Assembly: GCA_022226955.1 (NCBI GenBank)
Contig: CP092079.1
Coordinates: forward strand, 3,374,790 to 3,438,789
Direction of reading: 5' to 3'
Origin: Nitrospira sp.
GTDB lineage: Bacteria; Nitrospirota; Nitrospiria; Nitrospirales; Nitrospiraceae
DNA length: 64,000 nt
Shown: positions 21,365 through 35,778 of the stretch, one piece after another
How the letters are laid out: each line of letters begins with the position of its first letter
How positions within the stretch are numbered: the stretch's first letter is position 1
Program-made: the position numbers and the translations under genes
Notes under the pieces: model-generated
Databases searched by the model: none
What the model was told of the DNA's origin: nothing
The model's input: only the letters and a program-made list of their open reading frames with translations

Positions 21365-22270
21365 TCACAATGGCAAGTCGGCTGGTACGGTGAGCGTTTC
21401 AAGCAAGGCTTGGACGGTCAGAGGGCTGCAACCCTCCGATCGATTATTCACCAGAACATACGAAGACCGTCCTTCCGCCTTCGCTTGTTTGACCAGCGTG
21501 ATGGTCTCCTGCCGCATGCGTGGTTGTGGCTGTACGATGCGATCGTAAGGAGCGTAGCGTTCGACCGCTCGTTCAAAGGCCAGCCCCAGCGGAGTCAGGA
21601 GCCGAAAGACGGTGAAGGGCGCGGTGAAGGTTCCCGTCAGTTTCCGATGTTGTTCGGACAGCGGCGGCATGGCAGTCCAATGATTGTAGACATGGGCCAC
21701 GCTGTGTGCGCGAAGGATGTCGTGATAGCGCGGGCCGAGGATGGCAGGATTTCTCACTTCGGTTGCGTAGGCCTGGCCTGGCGGCAGCTGTTCGAGAAAC
21801 CGGTCGAGCTGTTGCAGGAAAACGGTTGAGTCGAGCCCCCAGCGCTGAAATTCAAAAATAAAGGGGCCGAGCTTGGCTGCTAACCCTGTCAGTGCCGGTT
21901 GCAGCACAAGATCGTGAAAGGCTCCGGCATCCAAGAACCGCGGATTCGGCTTGCCGGCTTTTGCGCCATACCGCGGAAGATTGGCATAGACTGGGACGGT
22001 GATCTCTTCCCACACCTTTTGGCAGAAGCGGAATTCATCCGGGACTTGCGCGGCATAGTGGGCTAACTGTGCCGCGCTGGCCGGCCGGTAAAATGAATGA
22101 TCGATGCCGACAGTGGAAAATAAGGGCTTGCCGGGAGTTGGATGGGTGGCATATTCGGCGAGTGTGTCCTGGCTGAACCGGCTCTTCGGATAGGTTCGAT
22201 GATAGACGAGCCCCTGCCAGCCTTCGTAGGCCCACGAACTGGTGCCGAAGCGGAGTGTGGCGGTGGGCAT
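21365..22270 (-). CDS. DUF72 (YecE-like) family protein
   Basis: 301 residues, the usual length for the family. Hallmarks: FGTSSWAYEGWQGLVY at the N-terminus, FSTVGIDHSFYRPAS, FRFCQKVWEEIT, ATEVRNPAILGPRYHDIL and the C-terminal YVLVNNRSEGCSPLT. The fold is a TIM barrel related to endonuclease IV/xylose isomerase; biochemical function is unknown. It starts 76 bases from the oppositely oriented malQ start, so the two may share a divergent promoter region. Confidence 0.88.
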   Translation of the reverse strand: MPTATLRFGTSSWAYEGWQGLVYHRTYPKSRFSQDTLAEYATHPTPGKPLFSTVGIDHSFYRPASAAQLAHYAAQVPDEFRFCQKVWEEITVPVYANLPRYGAKAGKPNPRFLDAGAFHDLVLQPALTGLAAKLGPFIFEFQRWGLDSTVFLQQLDRFLEQLPPGQAYATEVRNPAILGPRYHDILRAHSVAHVYNHWTAMPPLSEQHRKLTGTFTAPFTVFRLLTPLGLAFERAVERYAPYDRIVQPQPRMRQETITLVKQAKAEGRSSYVLVNNRSEGCSPLTVQALLETLTVPADLPL

Positions 22271-22346
22271 TCTGGATAATCTAAATAGTCTAGGGAAACA
22301 ATAGGATAGCTTGACTTACCGCAGGTCGTCGCGCACACTCTCCGAC

Positions 22347-24599
22347 ATGTACGATCAGCCGGAACATGAACTGCTGTATCTGCTCTCCGACCGTGCCGGG
22401 ATCGCCGCAGATTATCACGACATTGCCGGGACTCGCCATGTGACGACGGACGACACCCGTCGAGCTATCCTTTCGGCGATGGGATTTTGTGTGACTGATC
22501 GGGCTGCGTTGATCGACGCGCTGACCGCGTGGGATCAGCGGCCATGGGTGCAGGGGTGCGACCCTGTTTATGTGGTCAAGACTGGTCACGCTCCTCGCGA
22601 GTGGTCGCTGCATCTGCCCTGTGAGTCTTCGGAGGATGGGCAGCTATCTGTCCATTGGAAGGTGTCGGGCGAATGCGGCGAAAAGCACGGCGAGTGGAAC
22701 GAGGGGCCTGGGCTTCCGATTCATGAGGAGCGGCTGATTCAGGGGCGTCGCTATGTGCGGCTGGCGTTTCCTCTGTCGCACGATTTGCCGATCGGATATT
22801 ACGAGACAAAGGTCTGGGTGCAGGGTGGATCAGCGTCGCGTGAATTCCAATTTCGTCTGATCGTCGCGCCGGCGCGGTGCTATGTTCCTGAATCGTTTCA
22901 GGCCGGACGCCGGATCTGGGGGCTTGCGCTGCAATTGTACTCGTTGCGAAGTGAACGGAACTGGGGGATCGGAGATTTTGGCGACTTGGCGAGACTCGTC
23001 GAGTGGGCGGGCTCTCAGTTGGGTGCGGGTGTTATCGGGTTGAATCCTTTGCACGCGCTCAAGAATACCCGACCTTATCACATCAGCCCCTATTCGCCGA
23101 GTAGCCGGCTCTATCTCAACGAGATCTATATCGACATCGATCGAGTGGCTGAAGCCAAGACCTCGCCGGATGTCCAGAACCGCCTAGCCGATCCCGCGTT
23201 TCGCGCGCAACTGACGAAGACCAGAACGAGCGAATATGTGGACTACGAAGCGGTGGCGGCGTTGAAGCGGATGGTGCTGGATCTGTGCTACCGGGCTTTT
23301 CTGCGTGACAACTTTGAGGGGACGGAGCCGGATCTGAAGCCGGCGACGGATCGCGGCCGGTTATTTCAGGCATACATTCAACAAGAGGGGGCCGCGCTCG
23401 CCGACTACGCGCTCTTCCAGGCGCTGGCAGAAGAGCGGCAGGTTGCGGAGCCTCACTCGGTTGTGTGGGCGGATTGGCCGGAGGCCTACCGCGCGCCCGC
23501 GAGCGATGCTGTTGCTGAGTTCAGGCACCGGCAGACGGAGCGGGTGCGGTTTTTCCAGTATGTCCAATGGCTAGCGACCGAACAGTTGATTGCGGTCGGA
23601 AGCCAAGCCGATGCGGCCGGAATGCCGTTAGGGTTGTATCACGACCTGGCGCTGGGCAGCGATCGCTATGGCGCGGATGGCTGGCGATTTCAGGAGGTGC
23701 TGGCGCATCAGGCCGATTGCGGCGCGCCGCCCGACGCGTTTGCGCCGGAAGGACAGAACTGGGGGCTGTCGCCGTTCGACCCCGTGAAGTTGCGCGCCAG
23801 CGGCTATCAATTTTTTATCGAGTTGCTTCGGATGAATCTGCGGTATGGCGGAGCGATTCGTATCGATCATGTGATGGCCTTATTCCGCCTCTTTTGGATT
23901 CCGCGCGGCATGCCGGCTTCCATGGGGACGTATGTGCATTATCCGGCGGACGATCTCCTGGCCATTCTCGCGTTGGAGAGCGTGCGAGCCGGAACGCTGG
24001 TGATCGGCGAAGATTTGGGGACGGTGCCCGATTGGGTGCGTGATCGCTTGGGCGCCGCCGGTGTCTTGTCGTATCGCGTGCTCTATTTCGAGCGGAATGG
24101 CGATGGGAGTCTGAAGGCGCCGTGGGCCTATCCCGCGCAATCGCTGGGTGTGGTGACGACGCATGATTTGCCGACATTGAGCGGCTACTGGGAAGGCACC
24201 GATATTGACACGCGCGTCGCCCTTGGGCTCGGTGGGACGGAGGAGGCCCGTCGAGGTGCGTTTGCTGAGCGGCACATGGACAAGGCCCGCCTGCTGGCAG
24301 CACTCAGGTCCGAGGGTCTCTTGCCGAATGGCTTGTCGGACGATCCGGCACAGAGTCCGGTCATGACAACGGAGCTGGCGGCGGCGCTGCATCTCTATCT
24401 CGCCCGCACGCCCTCATGGGTTGTTCTTGCCAATGTGGAAGATGTGATCGGTCAACGGGCACAGACGAATGTGCCCGGCACCGTCGATCAGCATCCCAAC
24501 TGGTCCAGGAAGTTAACCGCTACTGTTGAGCAGATGGTGCAAGATTCCCGCTTCGCGTCGCTCGCCGCCCAGTTGCGTTCAGCCCGTCCATCTGTGTAA
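22347..24599 (+). CDS. malQ: 4-alpha-glucanotransferase (amylomaltase), GH77
   Basis: 750 residues from ATG 22347; a TTG at 22311 would add 12 residues without a better ribosome site. The enzyme transfers alpha-1,4-glucan segments between chains (EC 2.4.1.25) in maltodextrin/glycogen metabolism. N-terminal ~150 residues form the extra beta domains of the long E. coli-like class. Core motifs: LQLYSLRSERNWGIGDFGDL, nucleophile Asp in IRIDHVMALFR (~507), acid/base Glu in VIGEDLGTVPDWV (~555) and TTHDLPTLSGYW (~607). It probably works with the alpha-glucan phosphorylase at 55554-57713, though they are not in one operon. Confidence 0.95.
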   Translation: MYDQPEHELLYLLSDRAGIAADYHDIAGTRHVTTDDTRRAILSAMGFCVTDRAALIDALTAWDQRPWVQGCDPVYVVKTGHAPREWSLHLPCESSEDGQLSVHWKVSGECGEKHGEWNEGPGLPIHEERLIQGRRYVRLAFPLSHDLPIGYYETKVWVQGGSASREFQFRLIVAPARCYVPESFQAGRRIWGLALQLYSLRSERNWGIGDFGDLARLVEWAGSQLGAGVIGLNPLHALKNTRPYHISPYSPSSRLYLNEIYIDIDRVAEAKTSPDVQNRLADPAFRAQLTKTRTSEYVDYEAVAALKRMVLDLCYRAFLRDNFEGTEPDLKPATDRGRLFQAYIQQEGAALADYALFQALAEERQVAEPHSVVWADWPEAYRAPASDAVAEFRHRQTERVRFFQYVQWLATEQLIAVGSQADAAGMPLGLYHDLALGSDRYGADGWRFQEVLAHQADCGAPPDAFAPEGQNWGLSPFDPVKLRASGYQFFIELLRMNLRYGGAIRIDHVMALFRLFWIPRGMPASMGTYVHYPADDLLAILALESVRAGTLVIGEDLGTVPDWVRDRLGAAGVLSYRVLYFERNGDGSLKAPWAYPAQSLGVVTTHDLPTLSGYWEGTDIDTRVALGLGGTEEARRGAFAERHMDKARLLAALRSEGLLPNGLSDDPAQSPVMTTELAAALHLYLARTPSWVVLANVEDVIGQRAQTNVPGTVDQHPNWSRKLTATVEQMVQDSRFASLAAQLRSARPSV

Positions 24600-24658
24600 G
24601 TACGAGGGGCGTGCGCATCGTTTCTTTCCGTCTTTCCCATCGGAGCGAGTGCTGGACG

Positions 24659-25813
24659 ATGAAGACCCGCAATTGGCTGGTGCTGAGTATTGCAGGCGCC
24701 TGTTTCCTCGCCATCGTCATTGTTGAGAAGCTCGCGCCGGCCAATGTGGTCGGGGCTTACGGCTATGTGTTGCCGATTCTCTTGGTCGCGACCTTGCGCA
24801 ATCGTACGTTGATGCTGGTGACGGTGCTGGCTTGTGTGGTGGCGACCTATGCGGGACTGCTCCAACCGACGAAGCCGGGACGCTTTCAGTCCGCGGTGAT
24901 CAATCGCACGGTGGTGGTCGGGGTGTTGTTGGTGGTGGCGTATATCGGGATGAGCTGGGAGGAGCGAAAGGCCAGGGAAGAAGCGGCTCGCGCCGCGCTG
25001 GCTCGTCAAACGGAAAATCTGTTGCGCGCCAATGCGCAGTTGGTCGATGTGAAGGATCAGCTCAACCGGTCTGAGCGTCTCGCGGCTGTTGGGCAACTGG
25101 TGGCGTCGGTCGCGCACGAGGTGGGCACGCCGTTGCACTCGATTGCCTGGCATGTCCAGGCGCTGGCGGAAGAGCCGACCGTCACGCCGGATATGAAGCG
25201 GCGGATCGATGTGATCGATGGGCAGCTAACGCGTGTGGTCGGCATTATTCAGGATCTCTTATCCTCGACTCGGCAGCGGAAGCCCGATCCCACCTGGTTG
25301 CCGGTCGATCATGTGGTGAGTCCGGTGACGGCACTCATGGAGCCTGCATTTCAAGCGAAGGGGGTGGCGCTTCGAGTCGAGCTCGGCGACGCATTGCCGC
25401 TGGTGTGGGCCGATGCCGAAAAGCTGCATCAAGTGCTGGTCAATCTTTTTGCCAATGCCCTCGCGGCGACGTCGGAGGGCGGGATTGTCACGATTGGCGC
25501 CGGCAGGCGGGCCGCCACGCCGGAAGAGATCGAAGTGGGGCTGCGCGTGGGGAATGCGATGTTCACCACGATGGTCACAATCGTCGTCAGCGATACAGGA
25601 TCGGGTATGCCCGAGGAGGATCTCCAGAAAGCCTTCACGCCGTTCTTTACGACGAAGGCGATTGGGAAGGGGACTGGGCTGGGACTGTTTATTAGCCGAG
25701 AAACGGTGCAGGCGCATGGCGGGACGCTCACGTTGGAGAGCACCGTAGGGAAAGGGACAACGGTTGTGATATCGTTGCCTGGGCAAAGTGCGGCGGACAC
25801 ATCAGAGATTTAG
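24659..25813 (+). CDS. NtrB-like sensor histidine kinase
   Basis: 384 residues from ATG 24659. About three transmembrane helices in the first ~110 residues with almost no periplasmic loop, then a linker coiled coil, HisKA with phospho-acceptor His153 in VASVAHEVGTPLHSI, and HATPase with N-box (VNLFANAL), G1 SDTGSGMP and G2 GKGTGLGLFIS. The lack of an extracytoplasmic domain suggests sensing within the membrane or by a partner. The stop is 8 bases before the response regulator start, so the pair forms an operon. Confidence 0.93.
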   Translation: MKTRNWLVLSIAGACFLAIVIVEKLAPANVVGAYGYVLPILLVATLRNRTLMLVTVLACVVATYAGLLQPTKPGRFQSAVINRTVVVGVLLVVAYIGMSWEERKAREEAARAALARQTENLLRANAQLVDVKDQLNRSERLAAVGQLVASVAHEVGTPLHSIAWHVQALAEEPTVTPDMKRRIDVIDGQLTRVVGIIQDLLSSTRQRKPDPTWLPVDHVVSPVTALMEPAFQAKGVALRVELGDALPLVWADAEKLHQVLVNLFANALAATSEGGIVTIGAGRRAATPEEIEVGLRVGNAMFTTMVTIVVSDTGSGMPEEDLQKAFTPFFTTKAIGKGTGLGLFISRETVQAHGGTLTLESTVGKGTTVVISLPGQSAADTSEI

Positions 25814-25821
25814 GGGGCGAC

Positions 25822-27237
25822 ATGCCGGCAGCGAAGATTCTCGTGATCGATGACGACGCGGTGGCCCGCGAGTTGCTGGCCGATGCTTTGAAAAAAGATG
25901 GGCATGAGGTGGAGTCTTTTTCCAATGGGACGGATGCCTTGGCTCGCGGGCACCAGGCGCTGTTCGACTTAGTGCTTACCGATATTCGGATGGGGACGGT
26001 GGATGGGTTAACCGTGTTGCGGGAGTTCAAGCGGTTCAGTCCCGACACATCCATTGTGTTACTCACCGCGTTTGGATCGTTGGAAGGGGCAATTGAAGGA
26101 ATTAAGCAGGGCGCATTCGATTACCTGGCCAAGCCCTTTCGAAAGGAAGAGATAAAACTCGTTGTTCAGCGCGCGCTCGATCATTGCAAGCTGGTGCGGG
26201 AGAACAAGCGCTTCAGGGTTGAACTGAAAGAAAAGGAAGAGTGGTCTCCGCTGGTCGGGAGCAGTCCGGCGATGCTGGATGTCTATAAGCTGGTGGCCCG
26301 AGTCTCGGAGAGCCGGAGCACCGTGTTGCTCCAGGGGGAAAGCGGCACCGGGAAAGAACTCATCGCCAGAGCCATTCATGCCAATAGTCCGCGTCGAGAC
26401 AAGCCGTTCATTCCGGTGAATTGCGGCGCGTTGCCCGATACGCTGCTGGAGTCCGAGATGTTCGGACATGAGAAGGGAGCCTTTACAGGAGCGGTAGGCA
26501 TGAAGGCGGGGCTGTTTGAAGCGGCGACCGGTGGGACACTGTTCCTTGATGAGATCGGCGAACTTGGGCCTGCGCTTCAAGTCAAGCTGCTACGGGTCAT
26601 GCAGGATCAGGAAGTGCGGCGCGTGGGAGGGACCGCCTCGGTCAAAGTTGATGCGCGCATCATTGCCGCGACGAATCGCGATTTGGAACAACTCGTCAAA
26701 GAAGACAAGTTTCGAGACGATCTCTACTATCGCTTGAACGTGGTTCGGATTACGCTGCCATCGCTAGCCGATCGCAAAGAAGACATTCCGATGCTGGCGC
26801 ATCATTTTCTTCAGAAGTATGTCGGCGGGACGTCGGCGGGGGTGCGCGGATTTCTCCCAGACACGATGGCGCGCCTCAAGGAGTATCGATGGCCGGGCAA
26901 TGTGCGGGAGTTGGAGAATGCGGTGGAGCGCGCGGTGTCGTTGAGTCATGGCCCCTTAGTCACGCCGGACGACCTGCCGGAAAGTATTCGGACGGCGGCG
27001 CCGTTGGAGGCGAAAGCCGCTCCGGCGTTGGAAGGGGATGAGATCTGCCTGACGCTCGAAGAGGTGGAAAAGCGGCATTTGATCCGCGTCTTGAAAGAGA
27101 TGAAGGGAAACAAGGTCAAGACGGCCAAGATCTTAGGCATCGACCGCCGGACGCTCTATCGGATGGCTGAACGGTTTGGACTCGACTTGGGGGATGATCT
27201 CGAGGCCGGCGACAAAGAGCCGGCAGAGAAGTTATAG
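25822..27237 (+). CDS. NtrC-family sigma54-dependent response regulator
   Basis: 471 residues. Receiver domain 1-120 with acceptor Asp54 (LVLTDIRMG) and Lys in YLAKPF; AAA+ sigma54-interaction domain with Walker A GESGTGKE (~172-180), GAFTGA loop (~219-224) and Walker [14 protein letters not shown]-terminal Fis-type helix-turn-helix ([18 protein letters not shown]). It receives phosphate from the adjacent kinase and activates sigma54 promoters. No obvious -24/-12 target was found in the window. Its 3' end overlaps the converging lipoprotein gene by 6 bases. Confidence 0.96.
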
Positions 27238-27672
27238 CAGTTGCAGGGCGTTCTTGATGAGCCGCAATTGATTGTCGGCGCTTTGGGGCAATGCGCTGGG
27301 AACCTGATCCCAGCTGGTAAAGATCCCGTCTTTTCCCTCTGACTGAACTTCCAGCTTCAGCGCCGTGTTCTGATTATCCGCAGCCGTCACCGTCGCATTG
27401 ACTCGGCTTTTGATCGTGCCGAATCGCCAGCGATAGAGCCAGTTCCAAGGACCCTGCATCTCTTCCCGATAGCTGGTTTCCAGCGTAGAGTCATTCTTCC
27501 AGTCCACATCGTAACCGTCGTCGGTGAGAATTTGCGTGAGGGCGGTTTTCACGGTATCGAGCGGGGCGGACAGCCGGGTTTCAACGAAGTCGGCCGGCAG
27601 GGGACGGGGCGCTCCGCTGCAACCGATCGCCAGCGTCATGGTTGCGAGAAGAAGACCTGCCCGTAGAATCAT
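27232..27672 (-). CDS. Small lipoprotein, unknown function
   Basis: 146 residues; signal with lipobox LAIGC, Cys18. The mature part (LDTVKTALTQILTDDGYDVD, then LKLEVQSEGKDG and [11 protein letters not shown]) looks like a compact alpha/beta domain similar in style to periplasmic lipoproteins that correct outer-membrane assembly, but no family was recognised. Its ATG overlaps the stop of the upstream RAM-domain gene by 4 bases, so the two are translationally coupled. Confidence 0.7.
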   Translation of the reverse strand: MILRAGLLLATMTLAIGCSGAPRPLPADFVETRLSAPLDTVKTALTQILTDDGYDVDWKNDSTLETSYREEMQGPWNWLYRWRFGTIKSRVNATVTAADNQNTALKLEVQSEGKDGIFTSWDQVPSALPQSADNQLRLIKNALQLL

Positions 27673-28070
27673 TTGGCCATGCTTTCCTGTGTGCGATAGA
27701 CCAGATGGGTATCGGTTTGCGTCACGCCTTCAATGCCATGAATTTTGCTCAGGACCAATTGTGTCAGCGCGTCCTGATCGGCCACATCGGCGACGACAAT
27801 GATGTCCGGCTTTCCCCAGCAAGGATCGATGGTCTTGATCGCTGTGATTTGCCCGAGCGATTTCACGACACTGGAGGTCAAGCCGGGGCTTACGTTGATC
27901 ATGATATAGGCCCGGTCGGACATCAGAGGCGCTCCCGCGCTGGGCGCGTGAATGGTAAATGGGATAGCCGGTGGAGCAGGCTGCGGCTCACCGTAACGAA
28001 CTTCTTGCCGCGGTGTCAATACAGCCGTGGCGCGAGTGGAGGCGGCGGGGGATTTGGGTTTTCTTGGCAT
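27669..28070 (-). CDS. Orphan Lrp/AsnC-type RAM ligand-binding domain protein
   Basis: 133 residues: a proline-rich, probably disordered N-terminal ~50 residues, then an ~80-residue domain beginning MSDRAYIMINVSPGL and running through VVKSLGQITAIKTIDPCWG, DIIVVADVADQDALTQLV and VTQTDTHLVYR. This is the RAM (regulation of amino-acid metabolism) domain of Lrp/AsnC regulators without the DNA-binding helix-turn-helix. An internal ATG for MSDRAY could be the real start, which would drop the tail. Stand-alone RAM proteins are thought to oligomerise with or sense small molecules for others. Confidence 0.75.
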   Translation of the reverse strand: MPRKPKSPAASTRATAVLTPRQEVRYGEPQPAPPAIPFTIHAPSAGAPLMSDRAYIMINVSPGLTSSVVKSLGQITAIKTIDPCWGKPDIIVVADVADQDALTQLVLSKIHGIEGVTQTDTHLVYRTQESMAK

Positions 28071-28083
28071 AGTCGATCAGGCC

Positions 28084-29415
28084 TCACTTTGGCGCGACGA
28101 GGACATCCACAGTGAAGGAGTCGCTCACGCTGGTTAGGTCCGTTTCGAGCCGCGTCGGACTGCCGATGCGCCCCTCCGGATCGTAAATAAAATAGAACAA
28201 GTGGACGCAGGGTTTACGCGAGGCGTAGTGGGCGGTATCGGCGGCGATTTGCTCGGCCAGCTCCTTGGTGGTGAGGCCCGAGCGGGTTTTTTGAGAGACT
28301 ACGGCAAGGCGGTCTTGATTCAAGAGCAGCGTGGTGCGTGTCGAGCCGTCTGCGTAAGACGGTGTCCATTCATCGGCGCCCACTTCATCGAATTCCAATT
28401 TCAGCAACGCACACAGTAAATCGTGCAGATCGTAGTTGTCTTCCACTTCCAGCGTTGTGCGATAGTCTTTTCGCAAACGGAGTTGTCTCGCGACCGCGTG
28501 AAATCGCAGGCAGACTTTTCGAAGCGCATCGACCGGATCCAGTGCCGGTTGTTTGCTTGTCGCAATGGCGGATGAAGTCGCTGTTGGATGTGGCAATGGG
28601 ACTGGCGATGCAGTTGGTGGCGCGACGACTATGGCCGGAGTGCCGGGTAGATCGGGCGGACTCTGGACGCATTCATTTGCAGTGACCGGGGCTGTCGTTG
28701 TCGTCGATGTCGATGGGGCGGCAGCCTCTATTTGTGGTTGAGCCGGAGTGGTTGCATGGGGTAACGCGGTCGGTGTTGATGCGGAAGGAGCGATGGGGGC
28801 CTGTTCGTCTGTTGGTCTTGTCATCGCCGGTATTGCCGGCGCACTAGCTTGAGTCGGTGCAGGCGGTTCTATGGCCGGTGTCTGCGGGGTCGGCGTAGCT
28901 GGTTGGAGTAAATCGGTCGCAATGGCGACGGACATCGTCACTGGTAGCGCGCTCCCCTTGGCGGTTTGCGCCATTGTCATTTGAGTAGCTGGCGTTGTGG
29001 GAGGGACTAAGGTCATCTGTGGCGGACTGGAAACTGTGGGCAATCCCTCGGCCTCAGGCGCCGTTTCTGTAAGAGGAAGCCCTTGTAGCTCCAGTTTTTT
29101 ACGTTCCAATGCTGCGATGAAGGATTTGACCAGTTGCACGCTCTGCGTCGTTTCAGCCGAGGTGGAGATTTTGAGCTTGTGCGCGCGGTGTGCTTGATAT
29201 TCGGGAGAGCGCTCACCGAATAACCGGCGAGCGGTTTCACGAATCTGTAACTCTGCTTTGGCGCGCGCGCCGTCGCGATAGGGAAAACCTTCCCGGCTGA
29301 AATCTTCAATCGAGGTCAGAATGCCTTGGAAGGTGGCGAGGCCCTGCGCGATTTCTTCGATCGCGGCGGCCTTCGAACGTGTGCGGGGAGACTCTGCGGA
29401 GCGTGCGCGTGCCAT
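28084..29415 (-). CDS. DpnII/MboI-like nuclease-fold protein with inactivated catalytic site
   Basis: 443 residues. Residues ~1-110 are helical (ARRLFGERSPEYQAHRA). Residues ~110-290 are a Pro/Thr/Ala-rich linker. Residues ~300-443 follow the REase_DpnII-MboI pattern closely: RKDYRTTLEVEDNYDLHDLL, EVGADEWTPSYADGSTR, KELAEQIAADTAHY, FYFIYDPEGRIGSPTRLETD. In that family the strand after SSR carries Asp (RMDFLL) and the next strand reads EVKKTR; here these are RTTLLL (Thr362) and VSQKTR (V373, Q375), so the Asp, Glu and Lys of the PD-(D/E)XK site are all missing. Probably a non-catalytic binding or structural relative. The partner is unknown. Confidence 0.75.
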   Translation of the reverse strand: MARARSAESPRTRSKAAAIEEIAQGLATFQGILTSIEDFSREGFPYRDGARAKAELQIRETARRLFGERSPEYQAHRAHKLKISTSAETTQSVQLVKSFIAALERKKLELQGLPLTETAPEAEGLPTVSSPPQMTLVPPTTPATQMTMAQTAKGSALPVTMSVAIATDLLQPATPTPQTPAIEPPAPTQASAPAIPAMTRPTDEQAPIAPSASTPTALPHATTPAQPQIEAAAPSTSTTTTAPVTANECVQSPPDLPGTPAIVVAPPTASPVPLPHPTATSSAIATSKQPALDPVDALRKVCLRFHAVARQLRLRKDYRTTLEVEDNYDLHDLLCALLKLEFDEVGADEWTPSYADGSTRTTLLLNQDRLAVVSQKTRSGLTTKELAEQIAADTAHYASRKPCVHLFYFIYDPEGRIGSPTRLETDLTSVSDSFTVDVLVAPK

Positions 29416-29538
29416 ACGATTGACTGCAGCTTAGCCCAGGGGTCGTACCCTGGCAAGAAAACGAGGGATTCTCACGGGGAATTTAGCGCGCCTCTGCGAG
29501 TGGCGCGCTGGAGCCAATGTGTCCAGGCGTCTCGTCCA

Positions 29539-32500
29539 TCAGATGCGCTTCGAAGGGGACTTTGCCCGACTCGACTTGCGTGCATAGGTCTGCCAGACCT
29601 CTGGTCCTCTCATAGATTCGAGCGTTTCGACGATGTCTCGTATTAGCCGGTCTTGCTCTTCTTGGAGGTGATGAATGGCTCTTTCGACCATGGGGGCAGG
29701 GCTGCCATCTGTAAGCTGACACGCGGTTTGTTCGATCGTGAGGGCGAGGGCGGCGATGGTCGTGGCGCCGGAGATCGAATTGATGCCTCCGAGCTGATGT
29801 AATGCATGTGCAGCGGCGGACCATTGGCCAGCGGCGGTGGCCTGGCTCAAGGCGGCGCAGCTTTGTTGGTAGTGCCCCACAAATTGCACAAGGGTTTGGA
29901 GATACAGCCATTCTTTGCCTGGAATATAGGTCGTGGATTGTAGGCAATGCAGGCCTCGAATGGCGGTTAAGGCGCGCACGAGTGTGGCATCGTCGGGGGG
30001 CTGTTTTGTGACAGGCGGCGAGGCCGGCGCGGTCGCTGGAATGGCAGCGGCGTTTGGTGACAGCCATCGGGCCAGAGTTGCCCAGAGCTGTTCAGGGGAA
30101 AACGGTTTGGTAATGAGATCGTTCATTCCGGCGTTCGTACAGTGTTGCAGCGTTTCCGGAAGGGCATAGGCGGTCAGTGCGATGATTGGCAGCTGTCCCC
30201 AGTCAGCATGGTCGCGAATCTGCATGGCCGCGGTGGGGCCATCCATGACGGGCATTTGCCAGTCCATGAGTACGGCGGCGTAGGGGTCATGAGCGGCGGC
30301 CGCCTTCATAATGGCGGCCACAGCCTGCGCCCCGTGCTCGGCGGCGTCGGCGCGTAATCCGGCCATTTCCAGCAAACTGATCGCGACTTCCCGATTCATC
30401 GCCGTATCGTCGGTGACGAGGATGTGGGCGCCATGAAATGGAGCTAGGGCGTGAAGGGCAGCTGTCGCGGGAGTAGGGTTCTTCATATAACGCGTGGGAA
30501 CGGTATGGCCGAGTCGATGGGTCATGGCATTGAGCAGATCGAACGCCAGGACGGGTTTCCCCAGTATGAACGGAGCAAGATTCTTCGCGATGGCGGAAGA
30601 ATCTGCCAGGGGCGATTGGAGCCAGATGATGCGGTCCTCGGTGAGGTCTCCAGTTTGTGCGCCCCACGCCACCAGCTCCATGGCGGCCATATCGGGGAGG
30701 TGTGTGGAGAGGATCGCGAGGTCCACAGACTGTCCTCCTTGCGGTCGACGAGCCGATAACGCCGCCATGGCGGCTTGCCCCGACGCCGCTTCAATAACCT
30801 GGAGATTCCAGGCCCGCAGGTTGCTGGCCAGCGATTCACGAGTGGCGCGATGCGGTTCTAGGAGCAGAATCGACCGGCCCTGGATCGTGGTCAGTAGGTG
30901 TGAGTCAGCGTGGGAATCTCCGATGCCACAGGCCGTGGTCAGCCAAAAGGTCGAGCCCTGGCCCGGAGCGCTCTGGAGGCCTACGGTGCCTCCCATCAGA
31001 GCCGCATACTGTTTACTAATGACAAGCCCCAGTCCCGTAGTCCCGATGAGGTGTGGCGTGCATGGTTCTTGAGCGTAGGCGTGGAAGAGACGTTCTTGTT
31101 GAGCTGGATCGATCCCTGAGCCTGTATCGCGCACGGCCCATCGCAAGAGGATGCGATCGGCCTGCCGGCGCTCAACGGAGACCCGAATCACAATCTCACC
31201 CTGGTTAGTATGACGCAAGGCATTATTGAGATAGTTGAGCAAGGCTTGGCTAATCCGCATTGAATCGCCGATGAGTCGACGGGGTACATCGGGGTCGATT
31301 TGCCAGACGAGTTCCAGACCTTTGTCGGAGGTGCGGTCTAAGGCCATGTCCTTCAGCACGCGGAAAACGTGGTCGAGAGAAAACGCTACTGGGGTGATCA
31401 TGGCTTTCCCGGATTCCAGTTGTGAGAAATCGAGGATTTCATTCAGTACGGTGATGAGATGGTGGCTGGTTCGCTGAATTTTGTGGACCGTGTCTCGCAT
31501 GCGATCCGGGGTGGGATCGAGCGTGGCCACATCGGCGAGTCCGATGATGCCGGCGAGCGGGGTGCGGATTTCGTGGCTCATGGTCGCCAGGAGTTTGGCG
31601 TTGGCCTGAGCGACCTGTTCAGCTTTCTCGCGCCCTAGGATCAACTCCGACTCGTGCTGGCGCAGTTGGTCGTTGGCTGTCAGGAGCGCGAGGGTTCGCT
31701 CCTGTACGCGTTGTTCGAGCTGGGTGTACATTTCGGCGTGATCGATGGCGATGGCCGCTTGGGTGATCAGCCAGGTGAGCACGTCTTGGCGGGCTGGCCA
31801 GCGGTCTTTGGTGAGGGTGGAAAATTGAAGATATAGGGCGCGTTTATTGTGGTGTCGGTGGTCGATGGGCATGCACAAGACCGACGCTGCCCGTACGGTG
31901 GAGAGGTCGCCGAAGTCGTGGGATGCCACGGGAGAGGTGTGCATCAGCTGACGATCGGGAATGTCGAGGGCGACGGTGTCGCCGCTATTAAACACATAGT
32001 GCGCGAGCGTTGCGGGGAGGCGATTGATGTGCGCGAGGCCGCGCGCGTAGTCGATCGTCAGCTGATCGTGCTCACGTAGGAGAATTGCGCCACGGTCTGC
32101 GCCGGAAAACTCGATGATTAACCGCAGCAGAATTGGCAAGAGTTGCGCAAGGTCGGGCTGCTGGTTCAAGACGCGGAGCACCCGCCACATGGCTTGTGAA
32201 TCGATGAGATCCATGACGGGCCCATCGTCAGGGGCCTGTGGGTCCACACCCAGATCCTGCAATTTCTGATCGACGCGTTGGAGCAAGGCATAGGCTTGGG
32301 CCTGAAGATAGCCGCTGCGGGCTTCGTGCAACACGCGGATGCGCAACGGGAGTGGTTGGTTCTGCTGTGCGAGCCAGTCTGCGAGCCGTTCGCAAAAATA
32401 GGCTTCGTCGATCAGAAACCCACCGCGACCGGCCAGTGTAATGGCCTGGCGGTACCCGTGCGTGGCGGCATCGATGTGGCCGTGTAACCGCTCGAGTTCG

Positions 32501-35500
32501 GTTCGCAGGAACTGAAGGCGATGCGCGATATTTTCAGCGGTGATCGCGGCATGCGTTTCAAGCGTGGCGATGGCTTGCATGAGGCCGTTGCGATAGCTGG
32601 TCCGGCTCTCGCCGTCCGCCAGTGTTTCCAGGCTGGCGCAGGCCAGGCCACGCCAGAATTGGAGCAGACGGTGTGGAATAAACGGGGGCGAGGCGGCGAT
32701 TTCCGGTGCATCCACTGCGGCCAAGACCTCGGTCCAGCGGCCGGCGAGTCCAAGCAAGGGCACGCGCGCGCCTTGCCGGAGTCCCAACACCATGGGCAAG
32801 GCTTGGTAGCGCGCGAGAAAGACGTCGTCCGTGACATGCGCGCCATCGAGACTGGTCAGCGACGCCGTCTCGCCGCGCAAGGCGGCCGCCATGGCGGCAT
32901 AACATTGCGTGAACCCCACGATGACTTCCATGGCCGGGAAGGGCTGGCAATGGTGGACGACGCGTTGGTGAGCGTCCAGGATATCTTGCGTGCTGGCGCC
33001 CAAGCTCGCCCGGATAATAACCATCACGTTGAGGAGATAGCCCCCATAGATGGGATCGTGCGCTTTCTTGGTAATCTCCAGCGCGTCTTCCGACAGTTCG
33101 AGGAGACCTTCGTTGTGTTGGCTCCAGTGGAGCACGAACCAGATTTGATGCACGCGCATGCGGCCATAGACCCAGCCGTCTTGCCCGCGCTGTTCCCAGA
33201 GTTCGGTCGCCAGTTCTGCGAGTTGCCGGGCTTCGCCGTAGGCCGCGCGGTTGGCGATCAATCCTTGGCCCAATAAGGTGTACATCAAAGGCGAGAGCAG
33301 GGTATGGCCATATTGGAGGCTGATATTGGTGCCAATGGCGGCTAAGAGACTGAGGAGCGGAGTGTTCATAATCGTGGCGGCATCGCCCATGGCGCCGATG
33401 AGCCGGTGAATGTGTTCGGCCATGGGATCGGTCGCCGCCGGCAGCGCAACCAGGCGTTCGCGTAATTGCTCAAGGGGAACCTGGCGCTGGAGCGTGGCCA
33501 TTTCCAGGTCAAACCTGGTCTGAATGGCCGGGAGGTCCTGCGGGGGAGGCAATGCGAGACCCACTTCGGCCAAGGCTTGGCAGCCAATCGACAAGCCGGC
33601 TTGCATTTGGCTGGATTGGCAGACATGGATGGTTTGGCGAATGCGGACCCGGAGGCGGTCCAGTGGAGTTGCGGCTTGTGCCAGCAAGAGCGCAATCTCT
33701 TTCTGGAAGGCGTCGTCCTCACTCAAGACCGAGGTGTTTTCGGCAAGGGCGAGATGGATCTGATAGGCCAGCGCATAGTGGCTATCCCACGGGTCTGCGG
33801 GCAGGAAAGTGACGGCCATGCTCAAATATTTTTGCGCGTTCGTGTAGGCCATGGCGGTATGGGCGCGTTCGGCGGCCAGGAGATTGAGCCGGGCGATCTC
33901 TATTCGCAGGCTGGGGTCTGTGATCAAGGAAAGGGCCAGGTTAAATTGGTCGACGATGCGAAAGACAGTGGCGGGAATACCCTCCGGCGGGGTAAGCGCG
34001 CGGAGGCTGAGGCCCGCGGTCAGGTGAAGCTGGTGGACAGAGGGTCCCTCCGGCAACGTATACGCGGCTTGTTGCACGCGGTCGTGTGCAAAACGAAACT
34101 CATAGGCGTGCGGCGCGTTATCGACGGGCAGAATGAGTTCTTCGCGCAGGACTGGCGCCAGCGCGGTCAGCGCTGCCGCATCGGCGAGACGCAGCATGTG
34201 CGCCAAGATAGGAAGCTGGAAGTGCTTGCCTAAGCAGGCGGCGGCTTTCATGAGCTGGCGCGTGAGTGGGGTATGGAGGCTCAGGCGGCTGTGCATCAAT
34301 TGAATGACGTCGCCATGGGTCTCAGCCGGATCTTGACGGGTGTGCCACTGCCAGCAGGTGGCGGCGCGGTCATACGTTAATTCCTGCTGGCGGACCATAT
34401 TGGCGAGGAATTGGCGAGTAAAAAAGGGGTTGCCGTGGGTTTGGTCCATCACATAGCGCGCCAGCCGCTCGGGCTCGCTGAGCCGGTAGAGTGAGTCGGC
34501 GATCATGTGCGAGATATCGATTTCGCGCAGGGGCTGGACGACAAATTCTGCGAGGAGCGCCTGGTCTGTGCGCAAACTGGCGATCAAGGCCGTCAACTGG
34601 TGCGTGGGGCCGACTTCGTTGTCACGGTAGGCACCGATTAGCAGCAGATGCGCGCCCACGCCTTCCTGCACAAACGTGTGGATTAACGTGAGCGAGGACG
34701 AATCGGCCCATTGGAGGTCGTCGAGAAAGAGCACCAGCGGATGTGTGGGGCTGGCAAATTCCTTGAGCAGCGAGGTGAAGAGCGTGTTGAACCGGGTTTG
34801 TGCGGCGGCGCCGGTCAACTCAGGCACGGGCGGTTGCAGGCCAATGATCTGGCTCAATTCCGGCAAGACATTGGTGAGCACCGAGCCGCTATCGCCGACC
34901 AGCGCGAGGATTTGCTCTCGGCTGCGGGCAATTTCTTCCTGCGTGCGAGAGTGCAGGCGGCGGAGCAGGCCGCGAAAGGCTTCGATGATGGCGGAGTAGG
35001 GCATGGCGCGCTGATACTGATCGTATTTGCCTTCGACAATATCGCCGCCGGTGGCGAGGACATGCGGCCGTAGGGCTTGGACAAGCGAGGATTTGCCAAT
35101 GCCGGAATAGCCGGACACGAGGCACAGCACAATCTCGCCGTTGACGGCGCGGCGGTAAATCTGTTCCAGGTCCGCGACGTCCTGGTCGCGGCCATAGAGT
35201 TTCGCGGGAATGAGAAATTGGGCGCCGCGTTCGGCGCCGCCGAGTTCAAAGGGCGGAATCGAGCCGGTGGCGAGCAGGTGTCGCTCGCATTCCCGTAAAT
35301 CGTGGAGCAAGCCTTCGGTGGAGGCATAGCGGGCCTCCGGCAATTTGGCCAGCAGCCGGTCGACGAGGGCGCTGAGGGGTTGGGGGATCGTGGTTTTCAG
35401 CGCGAGCGGTTCAGGGACGATTGCCAGGTGGCAATGCGCAAGCGAGAGGGGGTTGTCGCTGGGGAATGGCGGGGTGTGCGCCCAGAAGCTATAGAACATG

Positions 35501-35778
35501 GCGCCGAGGGAATAGAGATCGCTGCGGACGTCGATCAGCGGCAGTTTTCCGATCTGCTCCGGCGGCATATACTGCATCAGCTCGATGGGATCGGCGTCGG
35601 CGGGCGCCGGACGCACGTCGACTCGTCCTTGGGTATCTTCGACAAAATAGCTTGGAAGTAAGGAGCCTCGTGCGGTTGTGGCTCTATGGTGGCATTGCAG
35701 CGCACGGGTCCAAGCCATCGCCAGGCGGACGAGGTATAAGGTGTGTTCCTGAGAAGGTGTGGAAGTATCGACGCGCAT
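29539..35778 (-). CDS. Giant hybrid sensor kinase: pseudokinase fragment, AAA ATPase, GAF, HisKA, HATPase, two receivers, Hpt
   Basis: 2079 residues. The first ~170 keep only the C-lobe of a Ser/Thr kinase (YMPPEQIG, DVRSDLYSLGAMFY); the N-lobe is absent and the catalytic HRD loop is unrecognisable. Then an AAA/NACHT-type ATPase (GYSGIGKSSL, Lys ~229; LFLDDLQWADSS ~353), a long helical/TPR-like region (~500-1150), GAF (~1210-1350), HisKA with His ~1401 (MSHEIRTPLAG), HATPase (DTGSGI, TTGLGL), a degenerate receiver with Ser (~1690) at the acceptor position (DLAILSTHLP), a normal receiver with Asp ~1839 (VLMDWQMPVMDG), and an Hpt domain with His1991 (AHALHQLGG). A complete cytoplasmic phosphorelay without transmembrane helices. 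The output partner is not adjacent. Confidence 0.92.
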   Translation of the reverse strand: MRVDTSTPSQEHTLYLVRLAMAWTRALQCHHRATTARGSLLPSYFVEDTQGRVDVRPAPADADPIELMQYMPPEQIGKLPLIDVRSDLYSLGAMFYSFWAHTPPFPSDNPLSLAHCHLAIVPEPLALKTTIPQPLSALVDRLLAKLPEARYASTEGLLHDLRECERHLLATGSIPPFELGGAERGAQFLIPAKLYGRDQDVADLEQIYRRAVNGEIVLCLVSGYSGIGKSSLVQALRPHVLATGGDIVEGKYDQYQRAMPYSAIIEAFRGLLRRLHSRTQEEIARSREQILALVGDSGSVLTNVLPELSQIIGLQPPVPELTGAAAQTRFNTLFTSLLKEFASPTHPLVLFLDDLQWADSSSLTLIHTFVQEGVGAHLLLIGAYRDNEVGPTHQLTALIASLRTDQALLAEFVVQPLREIDISHMIADSLYRLSEPERLARYVMDQTHGNPFFTRQFLANMVRQQELTYDRAATCWQWHTRQDPAETHGDVIQLMHSRLSLHTPLTRQLMKAAACLGKHFQLPILAHMLRLADAAALTALAPVLREELILPVDNAPHAYEFRFAHDRVQQAAYTLPEGPSVHQLHLTAGLSLRALTPPEGIPATVFRIVDQFNLALSLITDPSLRIEIARLNLLAAERAHTAMAYTNAQKYLSMAVTFLPADPWDSHYALAYQIHLALAENTSVLSEDDAFQKEIALLLAQAATPLDRLRVRIRQTIHVCQSSQMQAGLSIGCQALAEVGLALPPPQDLPAIQTRFDLEMATLQRQVPLEQLRERLVALPAATDPMAEHIHRLIGAMGDAATIMNTPLLSLLAAIGTNISLQYGHTLLSPLMYTLLGQGLIANRAAYGEARQLAELATELWEQRGQDGWVYGRMRVHQIWFVLHWSQHNEGLLELSEDALEITKKAHDPIYGGYLLNVMVIIRASLGASTQDILDAHQRVVHHCQPFPAMEVIVGFTQCYAAMAAALRGETASLTSLDGAHVTDDVFLARYQALPMVLGLRQGARVPLLGLAGRWTEVLAAVDAPEIAASPPFIPHRLLQFWRGLACASLETLADGESRTSYRNGLMQAIATLETHAAITAENIAHRLQFLRTELERLHGHIDAATHGYRQAITLAGRGGFLIDEAYFCERLADWLAQQNQPLPLRIRVLHEARSGYLQAQAYALLQRVDQKLQDLGVDPQAPDDGPVMDLIDSQAMWRVLRVLNQQPDLAQLLPILLRLIIEFSGADRGAILLREHDQLTIDYARGLAHINRLPATLAHYVFNSGDTVALDIPDRQLMHTSPVASHDFGDLSTVRAASVLCMPIDHRHHNKRALYLQFSTLTKDRWPARQDVLTWLITQAAIAIDHAEMYTQLEQRVQERTLALLTANDQLRQHESELILGREKAEQVAQANAKLLATMSHEIRTPLAGIIGLADVATLDPTPDRMRDTVHKIQRTSHHLITVLNEILDFSQLESGKAMITPVAFSLDHVFRVLKDMALDRTSDKGLELVWQIDPDVPRRLIGDSMRISQALLNYLNNALRHTNQGEIVIRVSVERRQADRILLRWAVRDTGSGIDPAQQERLFHAYAQEPCTPHLIGTTGLGLVISKQYAALMGGTVGLQSAPGQGSTFWLTTACGIGDSHADSHLLTTIQGRSILLLEPHRATRESLASNLRAWNLQVIEAASGQAAMAALSARRPQGGQSVDLAILSTHLPDMAAMELVAWGAQTGDLTEDRIIWLQSPLADSSAIAKNLAPFILGKPVLAFDLLNAMTHRLGHTVPTRYMKNPTPATAALHALAPFHGAHILVTDDTAMNREVAISLLEMAGLRADAAEHGAQAVAAIMKAAAAHDPYAAVLMDWQMPVMDGPTAAMQIRDHADWGQLPIIALTAYALPETLQHCTNAGMNDLITKPFSPEQLWATLARWLSPNAAAIPATAPASPPVTKQPPDDATLVRALTAIRGLHCLQSTTYIPGKEWLYLQTLVQFVGHYQQSCAALSQATAAGQWSAAAHALHQLGGINSISGATTIAALALTIEQTACQLTDGSPAPMVERAIHHLQEEQDRLIRDIVETLESMRGPEVWQTYARKSSRAKSPSKRI

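Follow-up and report, generated by a model that had tools for sequence, protein, structure and literature searches.

The Gene and Its Protein

The locus described here raises the question of what becomes of a restriction endonuclease fold whose catalytic residues have been replaced, and what a protein that retains such a fold may do in the cell. The DNA is from Nitrospira sp. (GenBank assembly GCA_022226955.1, contig CP092079.1, positions 3,374,790-3,438,789 of the forward strand), and this whole stretch of 64,000 nt is referred to as the window. A previous interpretation made from the letters alone (the sequence-only reading) placed at 28084-29415 a DpnII/MboI-like protein with all three catalytic positions lost. 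The coordinates stand, but the gene has to be assigned to the minus strand, as in the open reading frame list, the plus strand being interrupted there by stops. The gene and the parts of its product are as follows.

28084..29415, minus strand: predicted pseudonuclease gene, encoding head, linker and a putatively dead DpnII/MboI-type domain, 443 aa (open reading frame list, PF18742)
29077..29415, minus strand: head, residues 1-113, predicted helices (AlphaFold2; hhalign; PADLOC PDC-S35 in the orthologue L113)
28546..29076, minus strand: low-complexity Pro/Thr/Ala/Ser linker, residues 114-290 (predicted disordered; near-neutral dN/dS)
28087..28545, minus strand: C-terminal restriction-fold PD-(D/E)XK domain, residues 291-443 (PF18742; AlphaFold2; VIA-align 2)

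In a Pfam search of the protein, PF18742 (DpnII-MboI) covers residues 297-443 along essentially the whole profile (2-150 of 150) with 154.5 bits and an E-value of 1.9e-45, the curated cut-off being 27 bits; no other family gives a better match, and this is the single PF18742 match in the whole genome. The C-terminal domain is modeled by AlphaFold2 as a confident alpha/beta fold (pLDDT 91.6), and restriction enzymes lead its VIA-align 2 list, in which BstYI is first (Z 7.8, rmsd 4.3, 128 residues aligned) and OkrAI, McrBC, EcoT38I, BglII (Z 6.3, rmsd 4.4, 124 aligned) and others rank below it, although it should be noted that Z values under 8 may reflect only a common arrangement and are not proof of fold kinship. 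Foldseek E-values for the domain are weak (0.01 and above), with no match at 0.001 or better for either model, and a phmmer search of PDB sequences with the domain returned one hit, with an E-value of 0.93. At the level of sequence, the profile match settles the family despite the weak structural scores, in agreement with the DpnII/MboI-like identity first proposed.

The other two parts are also as the sequence-only reading described them. Four helices are predicted within the head (residues 15-39, 47-66, 71-75, and 86-110, pLDDT mostly 83-92), whose structural matches are common helical bundles that are little informative (best Z 10.8). The linker, taken to be about 180 residues and rich in Pro and Thr, spans approximately residues 114-290 and has 177 aa, including 38 Pro, 32 Thr and 32 Ala; it is modeled as disordered, and in 80 orthologues its length ranges from 51 to 309 aa (median 209.5), with 26% Pro. 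A promoter scan gave a result at chance level.

Loss of the Metal-binding Acids

The domains compared are 135 distinct sequences taken from 202 hits after removal of identical ones and those of <120 aa; relatives found in the scan of named genomes, the source of the added deep Nitrospirota copies, are the best 80 of 174. Group counts are given on 134 domains, comprising 13 intact relatives, 112 of clade B, which includes the window protein, and 9 of clade A. The domain left out, L116, is a remote intact D-E-K relative with a branch of 4.81 that fell inside the clade in an earlier tree. The codons of the window gene at the catalytic positions translate to Thr362, Val373 and Gln375.

28330..28332, minus strand: codon of T362, site of the metal-binding Asp (D in 13/13 close intact relatives and 0/112 clade B domains)
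28297..28299, minus strand: codon of V373, site of the metal-binding Glu (E in 13/13 close intact relatives and 0/112 clade B domains)
28291..28293, minus strand: codon of Q375, site of the active-site Lys (K in 110/112 clade B domains)

The window protein thus lacks the combination of Asp, Glu, and Lys (or a substitute) that characterizes active PD-(D/E)XK enzymes. The genus alignment has 70 rows, of which 69 have letters at the catalytic sites, one row ending at a contig edge. Position 362 is Thr in 50, Ala in 12 and Met in 7 of these; position 373 is Val in 66, Ile in 2 and Ala in 1; and position 375 is Lys in 67 and Gln in 2. Neither metal-binding acid is present in any genus copy (0/69), so that both substitutions are fixed, and both acids are gone in every row of clade B. 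Chance can be dismissed as the cause, since these two acids are absent from 69 of 69 rows while the other acids of the family, Asp326, Asp329, Asp332 and Asp412, stay in all 134 domains. No homologue with an intact triad was seen at the locus; among the best 80 of 174 relatives, the nearest intact ones are at most 53% identical, lie at other places and fall outside the clade.

The claim that all three positions are lost therefore holds for this species and one neighbor (L003) but is rejected as a feature of the family, in which Lys375 is kept in 67/69 genus rows. As judged from the alignment, Gln375 is a late local change special to these two, and the real loss is that of the two metal-binding acids, not of Lys375. 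Gln takes the place of the active-site Lys in some enzymes that do cut, BglII and NotI among them (PMC4081073).

It might be supposed that the protein is still a nuclease in which other acids took over the metal site. The Ecl18kI/Bse634I group are nucleases with migrated acids, and acids are found in clade B at 385 (112/112) and 388 (110/112), 10 and 13 residues past the position of the active-site Lys. However, acids at these positions also occur in 8/13 and 9/13 intact relatives, respectively, and hence are not replacements; no new acid substituting for Asp362 was found in the 134 compared domains, and the deep copies lost different acids. Rebuilding of the metal site by migrated acids is rejected on these grounds, and we consider continued nuclease activity very improbable.

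Selection and Distribution

Values of dN/dS were computable for 10 of 14 pairs for the C-terminal domain (0.08-0.27), 8 of 14 for the head (0.02-0.58) and 13 of 14 for the linker (0.65-2.1), the linker values being open to inflation by the gapped alignment; the start of L046 is misplaced in this set, and its head is accordingly too short. Purifying selection acts on both end domains and the linker is near neutral, the pattern of two functional domains joined by an unconstrained tether. Loss of the acids throughout the clade, together with purifying selection on the domain, upholds the description of a retained but dead nuclease fold, and that the protein is a pseudonuclease, leaving aside any attachment to DNA, is in our judgment very probable. 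Active-site loss can be a first outcome of decay and the gene is missing from some small genomes, as would be the case for a functionless relic, but the low dN/dS of the C-terminal domain speaks against decay, as does the rarity of in-frame stops, which interrupt the matched region in 2 of the 70 matching genus genomes, nearly all copies being open. A relic is thus given a negligible probability.

The gene was found in 70/79 genomes of the genus Nitrospira and in 47 of the 49 good ones. In a draw of 245 genomes across the phylum, PF18742 is present in 58/64 Nitrospiraceae genomes, and the sister family f2 has one weak match, below the cut-off. Because it is missing from 6 of the 64 family genomes, the gene is not essential. 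Additional PF18742 matches within the family number one in G127, two in G033 and one in G001; those in G033 consist of fragments of the genome's own copy and a remote kind, that in G001 is weak, and a close intact second copy is present only in G127 among the 58 genomes. A copy 80% identical was also seen on a contig titled Phycisphaerales (L126), probably a mis-binned Nitrospira contig.

The Conserved Locus

The conserved side of the locus contains the following features.

27669..27920, minus strand: stand-alone Lrp/AsnC ligand-binding (RAM) domain protein, 83 aa, conserved downstream neighbor (PF01037)
27232..27672, minus strand: small protein with a lipobox-like N terminus (by eye) and without a Pfam match, conserved neighbor
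24611..27237, plus strand: histidine kinase and sigma-54-type response regulator, convergent with the gene

Along the locus, a glucanotransferase gene is followed by those of the histidine kinase and the regulator, and then by the convergent lipoprotein-like, RAM and pseudonuclease genes. The locus survey took the first 120 loci, 115 of which hold the gene or the intact paralogue and several of which repeat one place. The same response regulator adjoins the gene in 111/115 loci, the four others being two short contigs and two loci of the intact paralogue, and the RAM gene adjoins in 110/115. The upstream side is variable; a conserved upstream neighbor was rejected, the commonest open reading frame cluster occurring in only 31/79 upstream stretches. 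The idea that the gene works together with the RAM and lipoprotein-like genes downstream of it was likewise rejected: these two genes and the regulator persist in G132, G148, G219, and G269 without the pseudonuclease gene. The neighborhood consequently tells of vertical descent and not of a shared job, and the link is positional.

Two observations concern the annotation of neighboring genes. The RAM open reading frame is listed from 28070, but relatives match it from around residue 51 onward, and its start is probably 27920. The minus-strand gene at 29539-35778 encodes a hybrid sensor kinase of 2079 aa in which the N-terminal protein-kinase match is to the C-lobe only (profile 162-260 of 263), and no N-lobe was seen by eye in the upstream frames.

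The neighbors identified between 21365 and 35778 are DUF72, 4-alpha-glucanotransferase, histidine kinase, response regulator, lipoprotein-like, RAM and the big sensor kinase genes; they include no cognate DNA methyltransferase gene and no Argonaute or other defense gene.

Intact Relatives and the Number of Inactivations

All 13 close relatives outside the clade have an intact D-E-K triad, as do all six plasmid relatives examined (from 20 listed of 203 plasmid records). The intact relatives have open frames of 204-316 aa, without a long linker in those that were read, and two of them, L118 (Nitrospira defluvii) and L186 (Hydrogenophaga), are spanned almost entirely by phrog_29450. L118 is near an integrase, and L186 is next to an SNF2/PLD helicase, with a phage lysozyme nearby. 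The heads of intact relatives match the PADLOC candidate PDC-S35, which the head of L113 also matches (E 0.0014), and in hhalign the profile of the Nitrospira head aligns with that of the intact heads (P 3e-4, probability 40%) over the same stretch, with a shared FG-x-x-S motif. From these comparisons, of which the hhalign match of the heads is weak, the head is likely to be distantly homologous to the helical one of the intact relatives, and the source of the Nitrospira gene is likely to have been a mobile defense-type protein. The domain is labeled "malate dehydrogenase" in two plasmid relatives (L220:2698-3489 and L221:2695-3483), which look misannotated.

In N. defluvii (G127, with L118 and L120; FP929003, with L162) a dead copy and an intact paralogue are present in the same genome; in G127, the intact relative is at L118:4771-5595 on the plus strand and the dead core copy is L120. 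This coexistence would suit a part in phage defense, in which the protein acts as a decoy, as a sensor or in a dominant-negative way by damping intact members of its family, and both the head and nuclease families are filed under defense (PADLOC PDC-S35 and Aga_Helical-REase). However, in most genomes no intact partner is present on which it could act, and vertical descent at one fixed place and the slow evolution of both end domains are at variance with such a part. The sensor or decoy role suggested by the sequence-only reading accordingly finds little support in a vertically inherited resident of a fixed locus that has no other defense genes among the neighbors identified, and we regard a defense role as improbable.

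In the final tree, which was built without the catalytic columns and without L116, the lost copies form one side with support of 100/99. The nine clade A copies have the triads D-V-I and D-S-R (two each) and Y-E-K, D-T-R, G-E-R, D-V-K and D-Q-K (one each); six of them (L113, L114, L181, L182, L191, and L196) were seen at all or part of the conserved locus, and three (L185, L190, and L195) were not. Since some rows lack the Asp and have the Glu and others are the reverse, both acids were present in their common ancestor, barring the regain of a residue, and inactivation therefore happened at least twice, with the same proviso. The best trees suggest several separate losses, but a larger count was not adopted: trees that hold L113 and L191 together (p-AU 0.236) or the seven Asp-keeping rows together (p-AU 0.128) are not rejected, and only two inactivations are therefore claimed, if no acid was regained. 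Lys366 and Gly387 of the intact relatives are altered in nearly all clade copies, and some functional change may have preceded the loss of the acids. One metagenome-assembled genome, CR_Sed_300A_bin.33, has a clade B copy at the locus (L176, S-I-K) and a clade A copy on another contig (L195, D-V-K), so that either the genome has two copies or the bin is mixed.

These graded copies are compatible with a history in which a mobile anti-phage nuclease was domesticated in an ancestor of the Nitrospiraceae and made into a resident DNA tether that does not cut, acquiring a household function first, while intact, and then losing its cutting site separately in several lineages, with the partial copies Y-E-K, G-E-R, D-Q-K, D-V-I and D-T-R as snapshots. 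We offer this order of events tentatively and think it somewhat doubtful.

Basic Residues and a Possible Role in DNA Binding

Arg315 and Arg319 are present in 134/134 domains, Arg or Lys at 360 in 126/134 and Lys or Arg at 375 in 130/134, and this kept set favors a retained nucleic acid surface. Tight DNA binding is common among restriction enzymes whose active site has been disabled. Against DNA binding, as far as residues can indicate, are the loss of two other basic residues of the intact relatives, Arg346 (0/112 in clade B and 4/9 in clade A) and Lys366 (2/112 and 0/9), and a negative net charge of the domain (window, −5; clade B mean, −1.2; intact mean, −2.6). A domain clearly more positive after loss of the acids was not seen, the net charges being slightly negative.

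The main rival to a DNA tether is a protein-binding scaffold, in which the dead domain would be a docking module off DNA and the head and domain would bind two partners that the linker joins. The loss of Arg346 and Lys366 fits this explanation, as do new and near-invariant features of the clade outside the catalytic positions, Leu314 (112/112 clade B domains) and Arg or Lys at 299 (111/112), and the presence in the fold list of Wolbachia CidB/CinB and Rpb5-type subunits. Some CidB/CinB and Rpb5-type proteins carry non-nuclease domains of the restriction fold. However, Arg315, Arg319, Arg360, Lys375, and Thr377 are nearly invariant in the relatives even though cutting is not expected, which is most simply understood if a nucleic acid surface was kept. 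A scaffold seems unlikely, if less so than a part in defense. Among the roles that the sequence-only reading proposed, DNA binding is probably still the likeliest.

The mechanism that we propose is that a two-domain defense-type nuclease, with a helical head and a DpnII/MboI-type domain, settled at the chromosomal locus before the Nitrospiraceae diversified and gained a long disordered linker. With the loss of both metal-binding acids the usual metal site is gone, and DNA cutting would not be expected. The dead domain would still bind DNA through the kept Arg/Lys set, the head may oligomerize or hold a partner, and the linker would act as a flexible tether between them, so that the full protein would be a non-cutting DNA-tethering or DNA-marking protein with a household role. 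We consider this reading as a whole, that of a pseudonuclease turned into a tethered non-cutting DNA-binding protein, to be evenly poised, the DNA tether being the inferred element.

Comparison with Known Systems

The intact two-domain members of PF18742, such as Hydrogenophaga L186 and N. defluvii L118, have the same full-length C-terminal domain and the same order of head then domain as the Nitrospira protein, but differ in retaining D-E-K, in being shorter and without its long linker, and in their mobile or phage-like settings where these were examined. BstYI and BglII are top structural matches of the Nitrospira domain, yet they are active enzymes and are only 6-9% identical to it in the alignments. 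The window locus differs from DpnII/MboI-proper type II restriction-modification systems in having no neighboring methyltransferase (21365-35778). The C-terminal domain matches Aga_Helical-REase of PADLOC with 61 bits, but only at positions 235-374 of 378, the C-terminal part of that profile, and no Argonaute is found among the neighbors identified, "Aga" being presumably Argonaute-associated; PDC-S35 matches the heads of intact relatives and of L113. Taken at face value the family name would mislead, and the window protein should not be read as a restriction enzyme.

No description of the Nitrospira pseudonuclease was found in the literature, of which coverage was partial. Dead nuclease folds are already known; this one is near-universal and at a fixed locus across a family of nitrifiers, in a protein conserved in Nitrospira, a key group in the nitrogen cycle. 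The graded intermediates and the intact mobile relatives make it a tractable case for the conversion of a defense enzyme into a household protein.

The closest published parallel found is fungal Ssd1/Dis3L2, in which the nuclease site disappeared on at least four occasions with a non-nuclease function kept, and for which the non-nuclease job is proposed to have arisen first (PMC8097288). The two cases are alike in the repeated independent loss of the active site with conservation of other parts, but Ssd1/Dis3L2 has an RNase II fold and is eukaryotic and RNA-binding, whereas the Nitrospira protein has a restriction fold, is bacterial and is a putative DNA binder. If the domestication of a mobile nuclease outlined above is true, the Nitrospira protein would be the bacterial restriction-fold counterpart of fungal Ssd1.
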